Part shown: positions 6,838-13,495 of the stretch, piece after piece | How the letters are laid out: every line of letters begins with the position of its first letter | Position numbering within the stretch: position 1 is the first letter of the stretch | Assembly (NCBI GenBank): GCA_030616165.1 | Contig: JAUWXV010000085.1 | Location: forward strand, 1 to 13,495 | DNA from: a bacterium | Lineage (GTDB): Bacteria; SM23-31; JAUVVT01 | Direction: 5' to 3' | Length of the DNA: 13,495 nt | The notes under the pieces: model-generated | Told to the model about the DNA's origin: nothing | What the model saw: the letters and a program-made list of their open reading frames with translations, nothing else | Database searches by the model: none | Translations under genes and position numbers: made by a program

Positions 6838-7970
6838 CATTAATCTAATTATATTATTTTGGGGTATTTAGAACTTTTTAAATGCTATAAAAACATAATA
6901 ATAAAGGTTATGAAAATTTTAAATTTTCACGAAACTCTTTTATTGTTTCATTTTGTTAAATAACAGTAAAGATATAAAAATACAAATTGGAGGAATATCA
7001 ATTATGTCAGAACATTTAAATCGCCGTAACTTCTTGAAAAAATCTGCTCTCATATCTGCAGGAATTGCAGCAGGTTTAAGTTTTGAAGAACAAGCTTTAT
7101 TAGCATGGAACCAAAGTAGACAGAAGTTGGAAGCCTCTGAAGGTCCCATTAAAGGCTTACCAATGGGGAAGATTGGTAATGTAAAAATTACCAGATTAAT
7201 TGGCGGTGGCAATCTAATCAATGGCTATGCTCATAGTAGAAATTTGATTTATGTATCTGCATTATTGAGGCACTATTTCACAGATGAAAAAATTATTGAA
7301 ACTTTGCAGATAAGTGAAGAAAACGGAATTAATACATGTATAATGAACGTGCAAGCAGGAACTCGCGAGGAAAATACCATTAGAATGCTCAACAAGTATT
7401 GGAAAGAGTTGGGTGGAAAGATGCAATGGATTGCACAATGCGACTCATATGAACATGATTTATTATCTATAGTTAAAAAGGCAATAGATAATGGGGCTGT
7501 CGGAGCTTTTATACAGGGTGGTTGTGGAGACAAATTTATCCAAAGCGGTCGTGTTGATTTGGTTGGAAAGGTTGTCTCATTTATAAAAGAAAACGGATTA
7601 ATCGCAGGTGTAGGGGGTCATTTATTGGACGTGCCTATGGCAGTTGAAAAAGAGGGAATAGATGTCGATTTTTATTTTAAAACTTTGAATAATGTAGGTT
7701 ATACCTGTGCTACTCCTGAAAAAACAATTGAATTCATGAAAAAATTGAAAAAGCCATGGATTGCCTACAAGGTTTTAGGTGCGGGAGTAACACATCCCAG
7801 AACAGGTTTTGATTATGCTTTTAAAAATGGTGCAGATTTTATTAATGTAGGAATGTATGATTTTCAGATTAAAGAAGACGTAATGATTGCAATGAGAGCA
7901 GTATCAGATAATTCCCAAAGAGAACACCCATGGAGAGGATAATAAATTTTATAAAACACCTGACAATTGC
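6817..7970 (+). repeat. Duplicated unit, copy 1 (Tat/AKR-like gene with flanks)
   Basis: Similarity to copy 2 is not limited to the gene. Upstream, the stretch around AACATTAATCTAATTATAT matches AATATTAATCTGATTATAT before copy 2. The block ATACAAATTGGAGGAATATC followed by the ATG is identical in both. Downstream, ATAAATTTTATAAAACACCTG matches ATAAATTTTATAGATCACCTG apart from two bases. The boundaries are judged by eye. Confidence 0.65.
7004..7942 (+). CDS. Tat-exported aldo/keto-reductase-like protein, copy 1 (loop-deleted)
   Basis: This is a 312-aa protein. ATG at 7004 is chosen because GGAGG (6989-6993) lies 10 nt before it and a Tat signal follows at once: NRRNFLKKSALISAGIAAG, residues 6-24. 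An in-frame upstream codon at 6953 lacks these supports. The body resembles an aldo/keto-reductase-type TIM barrel: MGKIGNVKITRLIGGGN (54-70), EENGINTCIMN (105-115), AVGAFIQGGCGD, LIAGVGGH (199-206), KPWIAYKVLGAG (250-261), NGADFINVGMYDFQ. The position normally held by the catalytic Asp (xxDTAxxYG) is Asn110 and the Tyr is absent, so ordinary NADPH-dependent reduction is doubtful. It is about 79% identical, counted by eye, to the next gene, but lacks 13 residues between Leu228 and Thr237. The substrate is unknown. It may have a changed or lost function. Confidence 0.75.
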   Translation: MSEHLNRRNFLKKSALISAGIAAGLSFEEQALLAWNQSRQKLEASEGPIKGLPMGKIGNVKITRLIGGGNLINGYAHSRNLIYVSALLRHYFTDEKIIETLQISEENGINTCIMNVQAGTREENTIRMLNKYWKELGGKMQWIAQCDSYEHDLLSIVKKAIDNGAVGAFIQGGCGDKFIQSGRVDLVGKVVSFIKENGLIAGVGGHLLDVPMAVEKEGIDVDFYFKTLNNVGYTCATPEKTIEFMKKLKKPWIAYKVLGAGVTHPRTGFDYAFKNGADFINVGMYDFQIKEDVMIAMRAVSDNSQREHPWRG

Positions 7971-8288: not shown

Positions 8289-9291
8289 ATGTCGGAACAT
8301 TTAAATCGCCGTAATTTCTTGAAAAAATCTGCTCTCATATCTGTAGGAATTACAGCAGGTCTAAGTTTTGAAGAGCAAGCATTATTAGCATGGAACCAAA
8401 GAAGACAGAAGGTGGAGGTGCCGGAAGGTCCTATCGGAGGTATGCCAATGGGCAAGATTGGTAATATTAAGATTAGTAGATTAATCTGTGGCGGTAATCT
8501 ATTCAACGGCTATGCTCACAGCAGAGATTTGATTTATGTGTCCGCATTATTAAGGAACTATTTTACAGATGAAAAAGTTATTGAAACTCTGCGGATAGCC
8601 GAAGAAAACGGAATAAATACTTGTATAATGAACACAGGTTCAGCAAGTCGTGATGAAAATTCCATTAGAACTATCAATAGATATTGGAAAGAAGGCGGAA
8701 AGATACAATGGATAGCACAATGCGACTCATATGAACATGACTTACTTACTATCGTAAAAAGAGCAATTGATAATGGGGCTGTTGGAGCTTTTATACAGGG
8801 CGGTTGTGGAGACCGTTTTATACAAAATGGACAAGTTGACATGATCGGAAAGGTTGTCTCATTTATTAAAGAAAACGGATTAATTGCAGGTGTAGGGGGA
8901 CATTTAATTGAAGTGCCCATGGCAGTTGAAGAAGCAGGAATAGATGTCGATTTTTACCACAAAACTTTACACAGCCATGATTATTGGTCTGCTAATCCTG
9001 CTCTACCTCCTCGAGGTAATATATGGGATGTGACTCCAGAAAAGACCATCGAATTCATGAAAAAAGTGAACAAGCCGTGGATTGCTTACAAGATTTTGGC
9101 TGCGGGAGCAATACATCCAAGGATAGCTTTTAAATATTCTCTCGAAAATGGGGCAGATTTTATTAATGTAGGAATGTATGATTTTCAGATTAAAGAAGAT
9201 ATAATAGTTGCAAAGAGAGCAGTATCAGACACTTCCCAAAGAGAACGTCCATGGAGAGGTTAATAAATTTTATAGATCACCTGAAATTGGT
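8186..9291 (+). repeat. Duplicated unit, copy 2 (Tat/AKR-like gene with flanks)
   Basis: This is the partner of the unit starting near 6817. Similarity begins in the AAAAAATTC stretch about 100 bp upstream of the ATG and ends about 28 bp after the stop codon. The two copies are in direct orientation about 1.3 kb apart, as expected from a tandem duplication followed by divergence. Confidence 0.65.
8289..9263 (+). CDS. Tat-exported aldo/keto-reductase-like protein, copy 2
   Basis: This is a 324-aa protein. GGAGG at 8274-8278 is 10 nt from the ATG. The Tat signal is NRRNFLKKSALISVGITAG (6-24). The barrel-like body matches copy 1: MGKIGNIKISRLICGGN, EENGINTCIMN (105-115, Asn110 where classical AKRs have the catalytic Asp), GGCGDRFIQ, LIAGVGGHLIEVP, KPWIAYKILAAGAIHP, ADFINVGMYDFQ and a C-terminal RERPWRG. 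It keeps the segment missing from copy 1, residues about 228-248, with HDYWSANPALPP and RGNIWDV; its His, Asp and Trp residues could line a pocket. From memory, related Tat proteins annotated as hypothetical or AKR-like in Planctomycetes and candidate phyla have a comparable insertion, so this copy looks ancestral. It is probably periplasmic. The reaction and cofactor are unknown. It ends 43 bp from the convergent TPR gene. Confidence 0.78.
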   Translation: MSEHLNRRNFLKKSALISVGITAGLSFEEQALLAWNQRRQKVEVPEGPIGGMPMGKIGNIKISRLICGGNLFNGYAHSRDLIYVSALLRNYFTDEKVIETLRIAEENGINTCIMNTGSASRDENSIRTINRYWKEGGKIQWIAQCDSYEHDLLTIVKRAIDNGAVGAFIQGGCGDRFIQNGQVDMIGKVVSFIKENGLIAGVGGHLIEVPMAVEEAGIDVDFYHKTLHSHDYWSANPALPPRGNIWDVTPEKTIEFMKKVNKPWIAYKILAAGAIHPRIAFKYSLENGADFINVGMYDFQIKEDIIVAKRAVSDTSQRERPWRG

Positions 9292-11712: not shown

Positions 11713-11820
11713 GTTTATAACCTTTGGATTAAAATTATTGAAGAATGTATCGATCTTATCGAGAAGTTCGTTGGCGTAACACAATTTCTTTTTAATGCTG
11801 AATACACCATTAAATATAGA

Positions 11821-11849
11821 AAGTTAAGATTTTAGTGCTAATATGTCAA
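11821..11849 (-). promoter_or_regulatory. Sigma70-like promoter candidate for the CxxCH/PD40/TPR gene
   Basis: On the minus strand a perfect TTGACA (11844-11849) is followed after 17 bp by TAACTT (11821-11826), a moderate match to TATAAT. It would give a leader of about 100 nt to the ATG at 11712. Primary sigma factors of Bacteroidetes prefer different boxes, so whether this consensus applies depends on the lineage. Confidence 0.4.
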
Positions 11850-11936
11850 TAACGTAATTAATTTTTCCATCAATCGCAAGTGAAAACCATGAAAATTTTG
11901 TCTGATTTAATGTTGTGTTCCTTAATTGGATTGTGA

Positions 11937-12177
11937 ATACAAAAAAAGTATAAAATCAAATATTTCAGAGTTGTAGAAGCTAATAAAAAATTTATGAAAG
12001 TGCAATGGATGGAATAAATAGAATAAAAGAATTGCAGAATTTCATACAAATAATTGATATTAAAACTGAGTTACTGGAAGACAAAGTTTTTATTAGAGAA
12101 ACTATGAAAATAAAATATCAATAAGCAAAGAAGTAATTGAAAAAACTGAAAAGATTATTATTGAAAAAAACCCGTGA
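11937..12177 (+). pseudogene. Frameshifted remnant of an unknown gene
   Basis: Three plus-strand reading frames succeed one another with protein-like content and nearly abutting ends. The first, 11937-12017, gives KKYKIKYFRVVEANKKF and MKVQWME. The second, from ATG 12005 to 12124, gives NRIKELQNFIQIIDIKTELL, then EDKVFIRE. The third, 12100-12177, gives ISISKEVIEKTEKIIIEKNP and a stop. Single-base shifts near 12005-12015 and 12098-12102 would join them into about 80 codons. There is no clear start or ribosome binding site. I do not recognise the family. Lysine- and isoleucine-rich frames arise easily in AT-rich DNA, so chance is possible. Confidence 0.3.
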
Positions 12178-12202
12178 AAAGCATAAATAATAAAATCCAA
12201 AA

Positions 12203-12220
12203 ATTATTCTATAGAATAAT
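12203..12220. repeat. 18-bp perfect palindrome
   Basis: ATTATTCTATAGAATAAT is exactly self-complementary with no spacer. It lies in noncoding DNA between the remnant and the small hydrophobic ORF. It could be an operator for a dimeric regulator, but no regulator gene is present in the window and it is about 430 bp from the nearest secure gene start. Confidence 0.3.
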
Positions 12221-12272
12221 AGTATTATATTAAAAAATTTTTATTTCTTAATATTTACTAAATAAAATAAGG

Positions 12273-12368
12273 ATGTTGATTGTGTTACTTGAAATTTTAA
12301 CCCTTACAATATGTGGTGCTGCGATGTATCCCGTTAGAGCCTTTTGGACACTTTTCAGTACATTTTAA
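12273..12368 (+). CDS. Possible 31-aa hydrophobic small protein
   Basis: ATG at 12273 opens a 31-codon frame: LIVLLEILTLTICGAAMY followed by PVRAFWTLFSTF and TAA. The composition is that of a single membrane-spanning peptide with one Glu and one Arg. The only upstream purine run (AAAATAAGG) abuts the ATG, too close for a normal ribosome binding site. It may be a small membrane protein, a gene fragment, or chance; I recognise no family. Confidence 0.18.
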   Translation: MLIVLLEILTLTICGAAMYPVRAFWTLFSTF

Positions 12369-12638
12369 GGTATAGGTATCATTTTATCAAGTAATTTTTT
12401 TCATATTAAAATATCACATACAAATTTCACATATTTGTCGATTTTATGTTATGGAACAAATGTTCACTTATTATAGTATAATAATCGAAACAATGTACAA
12501 AGATGTAAAAAATGAAGCAAAAAGTAACAGAACAGCAAATATTGGAAGCTCTTGAAAATAAAAGAGATGAATAAATATTAACAAATTGGTAAACTCATAT
12601 TATTGCAAAAAGCGGGGATAACGAAAAGGTGTAGCACA

Positions 12639-12965
12639 ATGGGATGGGAAAATCGAGGAAATGGACGGTATTATTACCGAAAGAAACGTATAGGTTCTAA
12701 AGTAGTATCTGAATATGTTGGAACCGGTTTGATAGGAGAAATAGCTGAAGAATTTGATAAGTCAGAGAGCGAAGAGAGAATCCTTAGACATAAGGAAGAA
12801 AAAAAAGAGATTAGGTGTACTGCAGAAATTAATAATATTGTTAAAAAAATAGAAAATGAAATAAAATTACTAACTAAAGCATTTTTGATTTTAAAGGGAT
12901 TTCACACTCACAAAGGAGAATGGAGAAAAAAAAGAAATGAAAGAAAAGAATACCAAGTTATCTGA
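12639..12965 (+). CDS. Conserved hypothetical protein, GWENRGNGRYYYRKKR type
   Basis: This is a 108-aa protein. ATG 12639 is preferred over TTG 12603 because AAGGTG (12626-12631) lies 7 nt before it and the recognisable family start MGWENRGNGRYYYRKKR begins there. It continues KVVSEYVGTG (about residues 22-31). A charged, probably helical middle follows, and then KGFHTHKGEWRKKR near the C-terminus. From memory, short proteins beginning MGWExRxxxxYYYRK with an SEYVG motif and ending HxxxxWRKRR occur in cyanobacteria, Chloroflexi, Planctomycetes and candidate phyla, usually unannotated. The many Arg, Lys and Tyr residues suggest nucleic-acid binding, but that is inference. It overlaps the next gene by 29 bp, which implies translational coupling. 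Confidence 0.65.
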   Translation: MGWENRGNGRYYYRKKRIGSKVVSEYVGTGLIGEIAEEFDKSESEERILRHKEEKKEIRCTAEINNIVKKIENEIKLLTKAFLILKGFHTHKGEWRKKRNERKEYQVI

Positions 12966-13467
12966 ACATGACAAATTTGTGGAACTTTTCAGGAAAACAA
13001 ATACAGATAATCCTAACCCAAAGGATGTGGCTGAAATACGGAAACTTTTTGCATCGAATCCTCAACTTTATTATAATAAAATTAATGCGGCTGAACAGGC
13101 TGTTGAAAATTTGATAGATAAGGTAAAAGGAACAGCTATATCAAAAGAAATGCTTAAAATGAATGTGGAAAACTTCCGGTTAAAATTTGATTATGATGAT
13201 GCTTCTTTAATGGAAAAATTACTTATAGAACAGATTATTTTATGTTGGATGAGAATGTATATAATGGATAATGCATATACTTACAACTTAATGAATGAAG
13301 GGAGTTTTAGTCTTGATAAAGCACAATATTGGGAACGTATTTTATCCTCTACACAAAATAGGTTTCTTCGAGCAATAGAAACATTAGCACGGATTAGGAA
13401 GATAACACAGGCAACACTTCAAGTTAATATAGCAGCAGATGGGGGAAAACAAGTGAATGTGGCATAG
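12937..13467 (+). CDS. Conserved hypothetical protein ending in QVNVA, partner of the YYYRK gene
   Basis: This is a 176-aa cytoplasmic-looking protein with no signal peptide or membrane segment. Visible landmarks are NPNPKDVAEIRKLFASNPQL (25-44), LLIEQIILCWMRMY (95-108), a helical stretch YWERILSSTQNRFLRAIETL continuing ARIRKI (131-156), and the tail LQVNIAADGGKQVNVA (161-176). I associate this layout, especially the YWExxL...RAIETLARIRK helix and the xVNxA tail, with an unnamed family that sits beside the YYYRK gene in several phyla; I could not verify this here. GGAG at 12922-12925 is 11 nt before the ATG, inside the preceding gene. The coupled arrangement suggests the two products act together, perhaps in a complex. 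Function is unknown. Confidence 0.65.
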   Translation: MKEKNTKLSEHDKFVELFRKTNTDNPNPKDVAEIRKLFASNPQLYYNKINAAEQAVENLIDKVKGTAISKEMLKMNVENFRLKFDYDDASLMEKLLIEQIILCWMRMYIMDNAYTYNLMNEGSFSLDKAQYWERILSSTQNRFLRAIETLARIRKITQATLQVNIAADGGKQVNVA

Positions 13468-13495
13468 TTTACTTATAACTCGGGGCTTCTGCAAA

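Follow-up and report, generated by a model that had tools for sequence, protein, structure and literature searches.

Two overlapping genes at the end of a contig

The window, by which we mean the whole 13,495-nucleotide stretch of DNA analysed here, is an entire contig (G000:C222), and therefore its end 28 bp past the second gene is an end of the assembly. Two small genes, A and B, lie there with the following features:

11785..12638, no strand: AT-rich stretch (24% GC) before A in which no gene is recognised
12639..12965, + strand: gene A, a 108-aa basic protein (from the ORF listing, the starts of relatives and the fold of the fused relative L045)
12937..13467, + strand: gene B, a 176-aa helical protein (from the ORF listing and the predicted structure)
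12937..12965, + strand: overlap of the A stop and the B start, 29 bp, possible translational coupling (from the ORF listing)
13468..13495, no strand: last 28 bp of the contig, with no second copy in the genome

The frame of A is open from 12603 to 12965 on the + strand, with a TTG at its opening (12603) and an in-frame ATG at 12639. The ATG is the likely start, because nearly all relatives of A begin at an equivalent M-x-W-E. The three-stranded beta sheet of A carries the motif MGWExRGNGRYYYRKKRxGxxVVSEYVGxG, and a long helix leads from it to the C-terminal hairpin and basic tail GFHTHKGEWRKKR. B ends in a disordered tail, LQVNIAADGGKQVNVA. Both genes are single-copy in the genome of the window, and the 29-bp overlap may couple their translation; in relatives the two genes are overlapping, adjacent or fused. 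A first-pass annotation, made from the letters of the DNA, had described two small genes overlapping by 29 bp, quoted several motifs (YYYRK, SEYVG, HTHKGEWRKKR, RAIETLARIRK and QVNVA among them) and assigned the genes no role or known family. The ORF listing places the overlap at 12937-12965, all of the motifs are present, and neither A nor B has a significant match in Pfam, NCBIfam or PHROGs.

On the 5' side of A lie ~855 bp at 24% GC and then a TPR gene on the opposite strand. Of the earlier description of this gap as about 900 bp of decayed AT-rich DNA, the base composition is confirmed, and no gene is recognised there. The decay is not supported: no trace of a replication or recombinase gene and no convincing primase remnant was found in it. 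No replication gene, recombinase or tRNA gene was found upstream of A-B in the window, and the contig end matches no other contig of the genome in a search for overlaps. The copy is intact, yet isolated on its visible side. Further upstream, two paralogous proteins encoded in tandem, at 6953-7942 and 8289-9263, have a Tat-like signal (RRNFLKKSALIS) and are close in sequence over most of their length. Elsewhere in the genome (G000), contigs C31, C106, C127 and C150 have tyrosine-integrase domains in their first 2.4 kb, as if mobile elements break the assembly.

Relatives in several phyla

Single-sequence scans found no relatives, so that profiles were needed. Whole-genome searches gave a distant A-B pair in genome G009, with a B protein 22% identical to that of the window, and an A-B fusion protein in pSINAC02, a plasmid of the culturable Singulisphaera acidiphila DSM 18658. 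With a profile built from A, the next search hit 25 places in 16 of the 291 genomes of the phylum of G009, presumably Armatimonadota, and a ten-row profile hit 24 loci in Armatimonadota, Chloroflexota/Thermomicrobiales, Planctomycetota and Actinomycetota. Two viral-catalogue contigs also carry relatives, the reciprocal scan with B found 28 places in 17 genomes, and 50,697 phage genomes gave no match. The earlier statement that comparable pairs exist in distant phyla is borne out by these profile searches.

In a maximum-likelihood tree, the clade that holds the window (99/98) also contains two Armatimonadota, one Chloroflexota, one Actinomycetota and both pairs of the viral contig L031. Such a mixed-phylum clade is the pattern expected of mobile genes, in a tree that resolves a minority of its deep branches. 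Within close pairs of relatives, dN/dS is 0.15-0.40 for both genes, indicating purifying selection; the planctomycete copies give 0.15-0.28, and the two copies of L031 give 0.16 for B and 0.40 for A. Because remote homologues occur in several phyla and both genes are under purifying selection within close pairs, A and B are real proteins rather than chance reading frames.

Pairing of A with B

B lies directly 3' of A on the same strand in 40 of 45 near-full-length A copies (31 separate, 9 fused), and L022 adds a tenth fusion. The five exceptions are L049 at a contig end, L055 with 766 bp of contig left, and the solo genes L062, L069 and L070. When B occurs without A, it is mostly a fragment (L093, L096, L104) or has a DUF6788-like gene in the place of A (L097, L108). 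The distances among A proteins correlate with those among B proteins (r = 0.68; the maximum of 2000 permutations is 0.34). The strict pairing and wide spread that the first-pass annotation named as a sign of a real two-component system are seen in the tabulated neighbourhoods, where homologues are mostly adjacent, in several phyla. Co-variation and synteny would also follow from simple co-inheritance. Taken with the overlap and the ten natural fusions, the co-variation makes a single complex of the two proteins the most likely arrangement.

Solo and chromosomal copies are in the minority. The chromosomal ones make up a second class, with five members in genome G144 and some elsewhere, and have no element genes around them. 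Four of the G144 loci (L066, L067, L068 and L073) are divergent chromosomal A-B pairs that lack the QVNVA tail and have no recombinase or primase neighbours, and in genome G102, L071 and L072 encode short solo A-like proteins (MPWEQRENxKYYYRKVRTG) adjoining housekeeping genes. The plasmid pSINAC02 (L004) has two A-B fusions, at 14455-15327 and 22941-23749, the second apparently frameshifted in its A part.

Predicted structure and charge

AlphaFold2 models the fusion L045 with a mean pLDDT of 81.5 and a pTM of 0.70. The A part is predicted as three beta strands plus a 52-residue helix and a beta hairpin at its end, the B part as six helices and a disordered tail. B of the window, modelled alone (mean pLDDT 88.6), forms a long helical hairpin of residues 91-120 and 126-159. 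A of the window has a pI of 9.7 over its conserved 99 aa, with a net charge of +5 on the sheet, +5 on the tail and -2 on the helix. It is basic in 95% of copies, and the family median pI is 10.0. The Foldseek and VIA-align matches listed are generic helical ones, none of which identifies a DNA-binding or oligomeric protein. Matches to DgkA, serine-integrase coiled coils, Cas12m and TasH were rejected as evidence, being generic helical hairpins.

A module of integrative elements

Genomic context was counted over 37 loci of the main class (class I). A replication protein is encoded upstream on the same strand within ~4 kb in 21 of them, 19 taken from the homology table plus L030 (AEP primase) and L052 (DUF3987). 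These proteins are of P4/D5 primase-helicase, AAA_25/DnaB, DnaG/Toprim, Prim-Pol, DUF3987 and AEP types. In the 4-7 kb upstream bin no replication protein was found among the 37 loci; two loci have one downstream, which in one case is part of the next tandem element. A tyrosine or serine recombinase with confirmed domains lies within 6 kb in 18 of the 37, and the other 11 loci, the window among them, have neither gene. Both recombinase families and several primase types accompany A-B, and the upstream replication gene is its most constant neighbour. Of 17 scanned recombinase-bearing loci, 8 have the recombinase gene overlapping a tRNA gene or ending no more than 100 bp from it: Arg in L030 and L052, Ala in L045, Gly in L053 and L063, Asp in L057 and L058, and Met in L060.

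In pSINAC02 the fused A-B follows a P4 primase. L031 holds two tandem elements in the order ParA-RHH-MerR-AAA_25 ATPase-DnaG-type primase-A-B-integrase, where ParA, RHH and MerR were named from sequence. L036 is a complete 16.7-kb element bounded by two copies, at 97-121 and 16786-16810, of the last 25 nt (3' end) of tRNA-Glu. It encodes an integrase, a DnaB-type helicase, A and B, with A-B on the strand opposite to the integrase and ~3.4 kb from it, as well as an HSP90-like ATPase, a Mrr/helicase restriction protein, Vsr, a C5 methylase and a dCTP deaminase; this last group of genes (9252-16168) resembles a defence island. The L036 contig (1-16906) ends exactly 96 nt outside each att repeat (96 + 25 = 121). 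An assembler with k near 121 would give such ends for a sample that contains both integrated and empty sites, which suggests that the element is active.

Because of this replication, recombinase and tRNA context, the L036 element and the tandem elements of L031, synteny in the class-I relatives establishes A-B as a module of tRNA-gene-targeting integrative elements. The horizontal movement suspected in the first-pass annotation accords with these elements in tRNA genes and with the mixed-phylum clade. The pair is probably an undescribed part of element copying or movement.

Comparison with known families and elements

Profile comparison placed A in no known family; only its hairpin resembles a Pfam entry, DUF6788 (PF20586), itself without a known role. 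Both have a GxYYxxxRxxGRxVxxYV beta-hairpin (hhalign probability 86.4%, E 4.7e-6, 31 aa), and in L108 and L097 a DUF6788-like gene stands beside a B-like gene, in the place of A. The similarity is below the Pfam gathering cut-off, as A of the window has no PF20586 match and the best of 23 A members reaches an E of 0.094. In addition, the CGKxxCRC cysteine motif that precedes the hairpin in DUF6788 is absent from the A sequences, whereas A has a conserved C-terminal GYHxHxRGEWRKR hairpin that DUF6788 lacks. In L097 (1234-2548), a P4-like helicase, a zinc-motif protein with a fused B-like domain whose tail reads AGQVNVGQQQVNV, a DUF6788-like protein and a tyrosine integrase form a parallel version of the A-B module.

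B has a look-alike in what we take to be an alphaproteobacterial plasmid family ending in GGQAIVGNV, which was located with a probe sequence (L076-L081). Like B, this family has a collinear helical hairpin and a beta-prone tail, with a weak profile match (E 0.0011, probability 20%), but its tail motif is different and no A partner was seen. Its members are often followed by an HGG_STG (NF041373) gene, L081 lies near an integrase, and an HGG_STG gene also follows B in L035. B may therefore be a remote relative of this family. We treat the DUF6788 and GGQAIVGNV links as leads, not as memberships.

Among known elements, actinomycete integrative and conjugative elements (AICEs) such as pSAM2 combine a recombinase of either family with a replication protein (PMC3218068). 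The A-B elements do the same and likewise sit at tRNA genes, but they have A-B in addition and most of their hosts belong to other phyla. No FtsK/SpoIIIE-type transfer gene appears in the family list for neighbours out to 4.5 kb or among the seven L036 proteins scanned. The open literature searched holds no paper on DUF6788, HGGxSTG or pSINAC02. Integrative elements are already known; the conserved A-B pair within them has no counterpart in the family libraries and open literature searched.

Proposed role and alternatives

The best explanation, to which we give about an even chance, is that A-B is a complex in the replication and integration core of the elements, marking or shaping element DNA for the helicase or primase encoded upstream. 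A would bind DNA with two basic parts, its beta sheet and its C-terminal tail. B would serve as a helical scaffold, bound to A and probably assembling with itself, with beta strands contributed by its QVNVA tail. The pair would mark or shape element DNA, for example an origin, for the replicative helicase or primase encoded just upstream, and the element would be copied after excision. We infer the DNA binding from context and charge, and likewise infer that the complex helps to copy the element once it is excised. We favour replication over excision because it is the replication gene that accompanies A-B most constantly, whereas the family, side and strand of the recombinase vary.

A role in packaging was kept as a rival because the plan of B resembles that of small terminases (TerS) and the elements have no evident transfer genes. 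A, or A together with B, would then recognise the DNA of a phage satellite, B would form a ring, and the large terminase of a helper phage would package the element. Phage satellites place TerS-like genes after the primase. In TerS, a beta-forming stalk follows a core built as a helical hairpin (PMC9611059), and the helices, long helical hairpin and beta-prone tail of B may be analogous to this oligomerisation core and stalk. In L081 the neighbouring HGG_STG protein gives a weak match to a TerS model, scoring 24 bits where the cut-off is 120, and one extended B member approaches a TerS PHROG with an E of only 0.068. However, B has predicted N-terminal helices but no Pfam HTH domain and no sequence match to TerS, and no TerS is among the fold matches listed for Foldseek and VIA. 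In addition, no large terminase, other terminase or capsid protein is among the seven main L036 ORFs scanned, and the 50,697 phage genomes gave no match. We consider packaging unlikely. Another rival, a recombination directionality or att-site architecture factor working with the recombinase in excision, we think quite improbable. Such factors are usually specific to one recombinase, but A-B accompanies both tyrosine and serine enzymes, is distant from the integrase of L036 and on the other strand, and includes a B protein larger and more conserved than a typical Xis. Recombinases are nonetheless frequent neighbours, an excisionase-like HTH_17 gene lies in the same stretch of L034, and A is small and basic.

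Two small overlapping genes on mobile elements, with some chromosomal copies as known for stranded toxin-antitoxin pairs, could also be a toxin-antitoxin or other stabilisation pair. The ten natural fusions, the conservation of both partners and the location inside the replication stretch make this very unlikely, and neither a toxin family in Pfam, NCBIfam or PHROGs nor a clear fold was matched. A separate question is whether the copy of the window still functions. As no element genes were seen and the contig ends 28 bp after B, it may be a relic left stranded, or it may be cut off, holding the opening genes of an element that continues outside the contig. That it is a degenerate leftover without present function is possible, though short of probable, and is compatible with the replication role proposed for its relatives. 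The 12.6 kb upstream without element genes, the AT-rich gap, the lack of a second copy in the genome and the contig end downstream fit a leftover. Both frames are intact, though, the conserved residues are kept, the start is sensible and the downstream side is unseen.

Beyond the replication role, a wider and more speculative reading, which we hold to be rather doubtful as a whole, is that A-B works in replication (or packaging) as a two-protein machine not described before and shared by very diverse integrative elements in at least four phyla. A would tether element DNA and B would be an oligomer closed by its QVNVA beta tail. DUF6788 would be a sister of A that joins B-like proteins. A single unnamed superfamily of adaptor pairs would then underlie many satellite-like elements that have their own primase but neither capsid nor conjugation genes in evidence.

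In little-studied phyla, integrative elements often have a primase or helicase and a recombinase, without visible means of transfer. The conserved and sometimes fused A-B among their genes, as in L031, L036, L045 and pSINAC02, points to a missing core function. Two unannotated families thereby gain a genomic role, and the orphan DUF6788 and HGG_STG proteins are tied to the same setting.
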